Origin: Sulfitobacter sp. W027
GTDB lineage: Bacteria; Pseudomonadota; Alphaproteobacteria; Rhodobacterales; Rhodobacteraceae
Assembly: GCF_025143985.1 (NCBI RefSeq)
Contig: NZ_CP083564.1
Location: 1,365,501 to 1,429,500 of the forward strand
Length of the DNA: 64,000 nucleotides
Direction: 5' to 3'
The notes under the pieces were generated by a model. It was not told where the DNA came from and made no database searches. It saw only the letters and a list, made by a program, of their open reading frames with translations. Below are positions 15,171-21,054 of the stretch, one piece after another (position 1 is the stretch's first letter; each line of letters opens with the position of its first letter). Position numbers and translations under genes: made by a program.

Positions 15171-15878
15171 ATGCGTGTATTGTTAGTTGAAGATGACCCG
15201 ACGACCTCCCGCAGCATTGAATTGATGCTGACCCATGCGAACCTCAACGTCTATGCCACCGATCTGGGCGAAGAAGGAATCGATCTGGCCAAGCTCTATG
15301 ACTATGACCTGATCCTGCTCGACCTCGATCTGCCAGATATGAATGGCCACGACGTGCTGCGTCAATTGCGGCTGGCGCGGATCGATACGCCGATCCTGAT
15401 CCTGTCCGGCGCTGATGATACGGAGAATAAGATCAGGGGCTTTGGCTTTGGCGCCGATGACTATCTGACCAAACCCTTTCACCGCGAAGAACTGGTGGCC
15501 CGCATCCATGCGATCATCCGCCGCTCCAAGGGACATTCGCAGTCGGTGATCGAAACCGGCCAGGTGGCGGTGAACCTAGACGCCAAGACGGTCAGCGTAA
15601 ACGACAGCCCGGTGCAGCTGACCGGCAAGGAATACCAGATGCTGGAGCTGCTCAGTCTGCGTAAGGGCACCACGCTGACCAAGGAAATGTTCCTGAACCA
15701 CCTCTATGGCGGCATGGATGAGCCTGAGTTGAAGATTATCGACGTCTTTATCTGCAAACTCCGCAAAAAGTTGAGCTTGGCCACAGGGGGGGAGAATTAC
15801 ATCGAAACGGTCTGGGGCCGGGGCTATGTGCTGCGCGACCCCGAACCGGCGCAGATGGATCTTGCCGCCAGCGCTTGA
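15171..15878 (+). CDS. ctrA: Cell-cycle response regulator CtrA
   Basis: OmpR-type master regulator; controls the cell cycle in Caulobacter and motility, gene transfer agents and related traits in Rhodobacterales. The 235-residue protein has a receiver domain with Asp7, Asp8 (VEDD) and phosphoacceptor Asp51, Lys in YLTKPF, and a winged-helix output domain (from about 125) with the [13 protein letters not shown] recognition region, nearly invariant among CtrA proteins. GGAG precedes the ATG. Preceded by sciP and a CtrA-like box. Confidence 0.95.
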
Positions 15879-15946: not shown

Positions 15947-20172
<4,226 letters not shown>

Positions 20173-20200
20173 AGTACATCCGTTCATTTTGTTCGCTAAT

Positions 20201-20215
20201 GTTCTCAAAAAGTTC
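20201..20215 (+). promoter_or_regulatory. LexA (SOS) box, alphaproteobacterial type
   Basis: GTTC (20201-20204), seven bases (TCAAAAA), GTTC (20212-20215): an exact match to the GTTC-N7-GTTC direct repeat bound by alphaproteobacterial LexA. A third GTTC lies at 20191-20194. TGTTCTCA (20200-20207) is also repeated inverted at 20236-20243 (TGAGAACA). The box lies 57 bases before the start of the 42-aa membrane peptide and 29 bases after the recG stop. Confidence 0.65.
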
Positions 20216-20271
20216 TTTACAGGTGGGGCTGAAAATGAGAACAAAGGGGCAACAAAGATGAGGAGGTACTG

Positions 20272-20400
20272 ATGATGACTTACACCGCGCTGAAATCTAT
20301 CGCTCTCAGGTCGCAGGCAACGCTGCTGCAAGATGCAGCAGGGGCCGCCGCTTTGATCGTGATGCTGGTCGTTGGTCTGCATCTGCCCACTTTTATCTGA
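20272..20400 (+). CDS. Small membrane peptide, 42 aa, behind a LexA box
   Basis: Frame of 42 codons with a strong GAGGAGG ribosome-binding site ending about 5 bases before the ATG at 20272 (a second ATG follows at once). The N-terminal half is short and basic (MMTYTALKSIALRSQ); the second half is a hydrophobic span (AGAAALIVMLVVGLHLPTFI) fit for one membrane crossing. A LexA box lies upstream and a T-tailed terminator 119 bases downstream, so it looks like a single-gene SOS unit. In Caulobacter the SOS-induced cell-division inhibitor SidA is a very short inner-membrane protein; I infer a possible analogy in role, not homology. Confidence 0.65.
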   Translation: MMTYTALKSIALRSQATLLQDAAGAAALIVMLVVGLHLPTFI

Positions 20401-20518
20401 GTTCTGCCTGAGGCTCTCATGCCGCTATGTCTGCTGCATCCGTCCCAATTTGATGCACCGATTTGCCTGTCCGCGTCGGACTATGGCACAGCGGGTCCCA
20501 CATGAGTAACGCCTACTG

Positions 20519-20557
20519 ACGCCGCCATCCCATTTCGGGTGTGCGGCGTTTTTTTTA
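20519..20557 (+). terminator. Intrinsic terminator of the 42-aa peptide transcript
   Basis: ACGCCGC (20519-20525) pairs with GCGGCGT (20543-20549) and is followed by a run of T to 20557. It ends the transcript of the peptide at 20272, ahead of the convergent scaffold gene. The 118 bases between the peptide stop and the stem hold no further frame that I can support. Confidence 0.8.
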
Positions 20558-20592
20558 CTTTAGAGGGGAGATCGTGCGAAATCCAGCCGCCG

Positions 20593-21054
20593 CTAGTGCT
20601 CGCCAGCCTCAACTGGCGCGTCGGCCTGCTGCATCGCCTCTGTCAGTGCTTCGATGCTCAGCATGATCGACGCATGGCGGTTCTTATAGGCCGTGGCAGG
20701 GGTCAGCACTTCGAAACCGTCAAAAGGCGCATCGGGGGTGGGGCCTTCGCCCTTGAGCATGGCGCGCAGTTGATCGCGCGCGGTGGTAACCTGCGCAAGC
20801 GACGCTCCGGGGGCAGCAGCGCCCACCACGGCGGCGGCAGCCTGTCCCAAGGCGCAGGCCTTCACATCCTGCTTCATTTCGGTCAAATGCCCATCCTTCA
20901 CGCGCACATCTACCGTCACGGTCGAACCACAGAGCGGCGAGCGGCGTTTGACGCTGGCCTGAGGGTCCTCCATGCGGCCCAGATGGGGGATCTCTGCTGC
21001 AAGCGCCAAGATGCGCGCGGAGTAGAGCTTGATGAGGTCCGTCTCATCCGACAT
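20593..21054 (-). CDS. IscU/NifU-like iron-sulfur cluster scaffold protein
   Basis: A 153-residue protein of the IscU/NifU N-terminal fold, which assembles Fe-S clusters on conserved cysteines. Cys42 lies in SPLCGSTV and Cys67 in [11 protein letters not shown], matching the first two ligand positions. Where the third cysteine would be expected, the segment KNRHASIML has Ala128, so the ligand set is incomplete. The frame extends upstream, but ATG at 21054 has an AAGGA 6 bases before it and the family N-terminus. Divergent from hisI with 74 bases between. Confidence 0.8.

Follow-up and report, generated by a model that had tools for sequence, protein, structure and literature searches.

A conserved small membrane peptide gene behind recG in Rhodobacteraceae, with a LexA-type promoter and a structured RNA tail

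What might a reading frame of only 42 codons, sitting behind a recG gene and preceded by what looks like a LexA operator, contribute to the response to DNA damage? The question arises in Sulfitobacter sp. W027, where the genes ligA (15965–18085) and recG (18082–20172), both named from their translations, are followed by an exact GTTC-N7-GTTC box, a short frame and a terminator (all coordinates are those of the window, by which we mean the whole 64,000-nucleotide stretch of DNA that was analysed). The initial annotation of these few hundred bases proposed a single-gene SOS unit encoding a membrane effector, possibly a division inhibitor or a toxin-like peptide, whose reality would show in the conservation of frame and box among relatives. 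Just upstream of ligA, recG and the putative SOS unit, at 15171–15878 on the forward strand, the window also encodes a 235-amino acid response regulator that we take to resemble CtrA.

The peptide family and its place behind recG

The frame occupies positions 20272–20400 of the forward strand. As initially described, its ATG lies 57 bases downstream of the final base of the box and is preceded by a strong ribosome-binding site (GAGGAGG, Shine–Dalgarno-like as read from the sequence, 20260–20266), its 42 codons specify a peptide with a single hydrophobic segment and thus one predicted membrane span, and it is closed by a T-tailed terminator that ends at about 20556.

A protein search returned 37 relatives of the peptide which, where the listed relatives carry a name, are called ‘hypothetical’ or ‘uncharacterized’ protein. 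At an E-value of 0.01, the peptide profile matches 333 of 394 genomes of the Rhodobacteraceae (296 of 347 good ones), a large family that includes the marine roseobacters, Rhodobacter and Paracoccus, and nearly every matching genome has one match. Among genomes of the class, all four members of the family match and there are three weak matches in the other 285. No Pfam or NCBIfam family lies above its cut-off for the window peptide, and 32 members of the family compared with the same collections gave weak matches only (best E-values 0.028 and 0.048). Pairwise dN/dS of the frame, scored only for pairs whose synonymous differences per site number between 0.15 and 0.6, has a median of 0.285 and is below 1 in 867 of 868 such moderately diverged pairs. 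Judged by these comparisons, the 42-amino acid frame is the gene of a real orphan family, and we regard it as extremely likely that it is translated into a membrane peptide.

The surroundings of the gene were followed in 110 loci, comprising the 80 best of 153 together with loci from the 30 best of 394 genomes; since only best-scoring examples were picked, the set leans towards close relatives, includes repeats of the same species and comprises about 100 distinct promoters. A recG match lies 5′ of the peptide gene on the same strand in all 110. The distance from the recG stop to the peptide start is 86–209 nt in 108 loci. It rises to 620 nt in the other two, L062 and L097, which represent one common sequence; here some 500 additional bases separate recG from the box. 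On the 3′ side, a NifU-like gene and hisI follow the unit in 99 of the 110 loci. Both the frame and its place behind recG are therefore conserved in relatives. A mobile origin of the unit was considered and rejected, there being zero peptide matches in viral contigs or plasmids.

Each peptide has one strongly hydrophobic segment, and in all 110 loci lysine and arginine occur solely N-terminal to it. The positive-inside rule allows membrane topology to be read from the placement of such residues, and this distribution predicts an N-in/C-out orientation. The AlphaFold model of the monomer, a single helix spanning residues 2–41 (pLDDT 90, pTM 0.49), says little beyond that predicted helix. Two residues, D21 and G24, are nearly invariant and are the only such residues that align between diverged and typical members (in an alignment that excludes L179), so that relatives keep location and promoter more closely than they keep the residues of the peptide.

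How far the arrangement extends was examined in 30 genomes that the profile does not match at an E-value of 0.001, drawn from among the listed negatives; two of them matched weakly (G066, E 0.004; G150, E 0.001). A recG locus was obtained from 26 of the 30, the best matches in the remaining four, from frames of about 1170 amino acids, being taken for Mfd. Behind recG in 22 of these 26 profile-negative loci is a diverged, single-span hydrophobic frame of 31–43 amino acids (frames were judged by eye, with the start placed at an upstream in-frame ATG where one was listed, and the count omits an unrelated-looking frame at L164). The exact box accompanies 20 of the 22 loci with the small membrane frame against none of the four without. 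Outside the Rhodobacteraceae, none of the 26 best-scoring recG loci has box and small membrane frame together: in two, a box lies no more than 250 nt away on one strand or the other, and another one has a hydrophobic frame.

The box, the promoter and LexA

The box itself (GTTCTCAAAAAGTTC) is found at 20201–20215 on the forward strand. Taken alone it was rejected as evidence, since it occurs at chance frequency: the window contains two boxes where 1.55 are expected, and the genome contains 96, whereas the reversed control pattern occurs 157 times. The second exact copy in the window, on the reverse strand at 2220–2234 and with a GC-rich spacer, is probably due to chance. What makes the box behind recG significant is that it is conserved across orthologous loci, within a promoter whose spacing is fixed. 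GTTC-N7-GTTC is found within 150 nt of the peptide start in 108 of the 110 loci (about 100 distinct promoters), and is missing only in L020, where the half-sites stand at N6, and L036, where the first half reads CTTC. The N7 box is replaced upstream of the L020 gene by the series GTTC-N6-GTTC-N6-GTTC.

When 100 distinct loci are aligned on the box, they share an arrangement of about 65 bp with fixed spacing, GTTC-N6-[GTTC-N7-GTTC]-TTTAC-N15-TGAGAACAAA-N4-CAAC, in which the half-sites are invariant whilst several spacer positions vary. The TTTAC block (columns +15 to +19) is nearly invariant in these loci. In the window it forms part of a probable −35 element, TTTACA (20216–20221, forward strand), that directly adjoins the box, and in some diverged relatives it is replaced by TTGAC or TTGCA, as would be expected of a −35. 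A 17-nt spacer separates it from a probable −10 element, GAACAA, that has no T at −7, a feature shared with most of the alphaproteobacterial sigma-70 promoters analysed in the text passages of PMC8407463. A third GTTC half-site (20191–20194, forward strand), 10 bp 5′ of the main box, is kept at its offset by 95 of 101 distinct loci, though by only 5 of 20 diverged ones.

Over the probable −10 and start site lies a second, inverted LexA-like box, GAAC-N7-CAAC (20239–20253, forward strand). A match to GAAC-N7-NAAC is present at exactly +38 in 98 of the 101 distinct loci and 14 of the 20 diverged loci; the exact form GAAC-N7-GAAC occurs there in just one of the 101, the outer half-site being conserved as CAAC. 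The GAAC and CAAC elements are 11 bp apart, which is the spacing of LexA half-sites, in inverted orientation. We read this block as a putative, imperfect second operator over the −10, but it may alternatively have a purely promoter or start-site role, with the outer half-site kept as CAAC. The third GTTC and the inverted block, like the structured RNA described below, go beyond what was initially annotated, and all three are conserved. There is no further exact copy of the promoter in the genome; looser matches to the first block, 43 in number, do not exceed the 75 of its reversed control, and for the second block there are 8, with 3 in the control.

The text passages of two reports give GTTC-N7-GTTC as the motif of alphaproteobacterial LexA (PMC3323433; PMC12700426), and the operator here resembles that regulon in sequence and in its place at the promoter. 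The Sulfitobacter genome has one LexA match, with GAAC-N7-GAAC just 5′ of it, and the repeat lies 31–64 nt before frames reading as lexA, recA, uvrA and pcrA/uvrD (all except lexA named by reading their translations). Twenty of the 96 boxes in the genome were inspected, chosen for AT-rich spacers or position; many are intragenic, and these figures do not serve to estimate the regulon. Among 28 genomes, comprising that of Sulfitobacter and diverged ones, 26 have the repeat up to 160 nt 5′ of the assigned lexA start on either strand, a count in which several assigned starts are internal methionines, the start at L242 is misread (that miss is possibly false) and the repeat at L223 is one base off. 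A LexA match is present in 27 of the 30 profile-negative genomes, and the four genomes with no unit behind recG do have LexA. No LexA_DNA_bind match was found in G150, yet boxes and peptide are kept there; the recG-linked unit of this genome (L167) displays three GTTC half-sites spaced 11 bp.

Because the box adjoins the −35 at a fixed spacing and the inverted block lies over the probable −10, control of the unit by LexA is very likely on the evidence of these sequences. Coding and control are the well-supported parts of the proposal, and the conserved box, frame and place lend strong support to the idea of a predicted SOS-induced membrane effector of the Rhodobacterales. The link to ligA–recG given in the initial annotation is one of position only, there being no exact box before ligA or recG in the 64-kb window. 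Text passages of PMC3323433 describe recG of some alphaproteobacteria as apparently LexA-controlled, whereas here the box lies behind recG.

The 3′ UTR

From the stop codon to the T-run is 144–222 nt in most loci. In the window, the corresponding RNA (20401–20556, forward strand) carries C-rich unpaired motifs and ends in an intrinsic terminator, a GC-rich hairpin with a T-run at 20518–20556, which closes a longer conserved RNA fold as its last hairpin. A terminator was recognised in 107 of the 110 loci; 72 sequences remained after removal of redundancy, 69 of which were aligned (L070, L088 and L090, of odd lengths, were left out), whilst folding was scored in 103 of the 107 UTRs and motifs were counted in 95 distinct cores. 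All 103 terminator-free UTRs fold better than the mean of their dinucleotide shuffles (mean z −2.38, with 62% below −2). The window copy is a modest example (z −1.90 with the terminator included, 12 of 200 shuffles folding as well), and L031 reaches a z of −4.55.

Covariation is strong in the closing helix, P1, formed by CUCAUG (20416–20421) and CAUGAG (20501–20506), both on the forward strand. Across the 69 sequences, both sides of P1 are changed in 79 cells, compared with 21 ± 7 in shuffled alignments, and its covariation score is 0.531 against 0.07–0.25 (at most 0.248) when the helix is slid. Hairpin P2 (20436–20456, forward strand), which carries CGUCCCAA in its loop, and the terminator likewise covary. 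Two further counts were not above shuffles: pairs with a change on both sides in the 69-sequence alignment (6 against 5.1; 182 of 500), and further standard pair types in an alignment of the window copy with very similar sequences chosen by hand, 20 of the 21 being used and L011 left out (282 of 500). Kinship of sequences can lift counts over shuffles without structure. P1 contains 26 G–U pairs against 6 A–C mismatches, which places the RNA on the same strand as the peptide.

Two short motifs recur in this RNA. UGCCU averages 2.32 copies per core (0.44 in shuffles) and GUCCC 1.94 (0.28 in shuffles), and in 94 of the 95 cores the C residues of UGCC and GUCC are unpaired more often than other C residues. 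An Rfam search of 20100–20620 produced three matches with E-values of at most 1, each well below its gathering score. In the Sulfitobacter genome, the RNA model finds a single convincing copy (125 bits); the next-best matches (21 bits and E 0.002 or worse) we tentatively take to be terminators. Applied to the 26 diverged recG loci, the model matches 13 at E-values below 0.01 and 16 at E-values up to 1, scores that are weighted towards the terminator and come in several cases from much shorter matches, and so are no proof of the whole RNA in those loci.

As far as folding and covariation can tell, then, the structure of this 3′ UTR is conserved as an RNA fold, and the RNA is likely to be functional. 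Whether it acts in trans is a somewhat less than even proposition: it may be a trans regulator, a protein sponge or a means of controlling its own mRNA. A conserved GGCA near the 5′ end of the mRNA may pair with the UGCC loops.

Possible functions of the unit

By analogy with SidA, we propose a LexA-repressed unit that makes a division-arresting inner-membrane peptide together with a functional RNA, a reading to which we would give an even chance. LexA would sit on GTTC-N7-GTTC, and probably also on the inverted GAAC-N7-CAAC, covering both the −35 and the −10 of one promoter. Self-cleavage of LexA on RecA filaments would open this tightly held promoter and allow a short mRNA to be made, giving a burst of a peptide of about 40 amino acids that would lie in the inner membrane, the basic N-terminus being cytoplasmic and the C-terminus external. 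The peptide would most likely bind one of the membrane proteins of the late divisome and, working in the manner of SidA, delay septation until repair is complete. The 3′ UTR of about 155 nt would fold, and its UGCCU and GUCCC loops would probably act post-transcriptionally, with other RNAs, a protein or the same mRNA as the target. What the sequences themselves show is that frame, operators, promoter, position and RNA fold are conserved, whereas LexA binding, induction, topology, the division target and the role of the RNA are the parts of this proposal that we infer. Division arrest by the peptide, taken alone, is about evenly balanced, and the ‘division inhibitor or toxin-like’ wording of the initial annotation is likewise an analogy. 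Near-universality in the Rhodobacteraceae would also fit a housekeeping or regulatory role.

SidA of Caulobacter is described in text passages of PMC4211646 as a 29-amino acid, SOS-induced, single-span division inhibitor that acts on FtsW. The resemblance, which on our side is one of prediction, is that of a single-span inner-membrane peptide under a LexA box in an alphaproteobacterium (text passages of PMC4211646 and PMC12700426); compared by description, the peptides studied here differ in being 31–43 amino acids long, encoded behind recG and followed by a folded 3′ UTR. DidA of Caulobacter is also a small, single-span peptide induced by DNA damage, but the same passages of PMC4211646 give it as 71 amino acids long, SOS-independent and dependent on DriD rather than on RecA and LexA. 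YneA and SosA of the Firmicutes are likewise described as SOS-induced division inhibitors. Both are longer than the peptide described here and belong to another phylum.

The peptide could instead be a toxin of the TisB/DinQ type, lowering the proton motive force and bringing about dormancy, with the folded 3′ UTR controlling translation. We consider this unlikely. The combination of SOS-type promoter, small single-span peptide and structured mRNA speaks for it: TisB and DinQ of Escherichia coli are SOS-linked toxic membrane peptides with structured or RNA-controlled mRNAs (text passages of PMC7708055 and PMC3567139), and type I toxin mRNAs likewise make use of RNA structure. TisB and DinQ are described as toxic and have RNA antagonists; in the present unit the conserved structure follows the reading frame, and the sequence gives no indication of an antisense RNA. 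At about 20 nt from the probable start site, the predicted 5′ UTR is short, whereas the standby site of tisB lies about 100 nt 5′ of its ribosome site (text passages of PMC7708055), and the occurrence of one copy in nearly all matching genomes, with no match in plasmids or viral contigs, also argues against a toxin.

Rather improbable, in our estimation, is a small regulatory subunit that modulates one membrane protein (a protease, transporter or sensor kinase) during repair and leaves division unaffected. A near-universal, single-copy gene under purifying selection suits such a subunit, and the near-invariance of D21 and G24 suggests a specific helix–helix contact, but the neighbouring genes (recG on one side, NifU-like and hisI on the other) point to no partner. 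That the RNA is the main product, an SOS-induced 3′-UTR regulatory RNA with repeated C-rich loops to which the peptide is secondary, would agree with the covariation of P1, with the enrichment of UGCCU and GUCCC and with the more often unpaired C residues of UGCC and GUCC; we hold it to be quite improbable, as the peptide is itself under purifying selection and several diverged genomes with a retained peptide match the RNA model over a much shorter length. Least probable of all is a box that belongs to another regulator, or is a mere promoter feature, in a unit outside the SOS response: GTTC-N7-GTTC is common by chance, G150 keeps its boxes with no LexA match and the probable −10 shares bases with the GAAC of the second block, but the identical repeat stands at lexA in 26 of 28 genomes and the half-sites are invariant beside variable spacer positions.

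SOS-induced small membrane peptides are already known as a kind; what appears to be new is the present family, with its location behind recG, a promoter that has two putative operators and a conserved RNA at the 3′ end. The peptide unit is not among the LexA-regulon members given in text passages of PMC6473078, PMC3323433 and PMC4344238, the passages of the last containing no LexA target, and the main text of PMC4809877 and PMC5107571 makes no mention of recG. In the text passages of the literature, supplements and figures apart, the recG-linked peptide unit is not mentioned, nor do those passages name an SOS division inhibitor for the Rhodobacteraceae. Unnamed, near-universal and present in one copy, the gene with its damage-type promoter makes a direct candidate for such an inhibitor in this family, and its conserved RNA tail would give the SOS checkpoint an RNA arm.

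Another candidate SOS promoter came to light in the same genome: at L128 (C1:2221805–2221819), GAAC-N7-GAAC lies directly before a frame of 158 amino acids, which presumably resembles the MmcB-type repair proteins, and a divergent frame of 218 amino acids.
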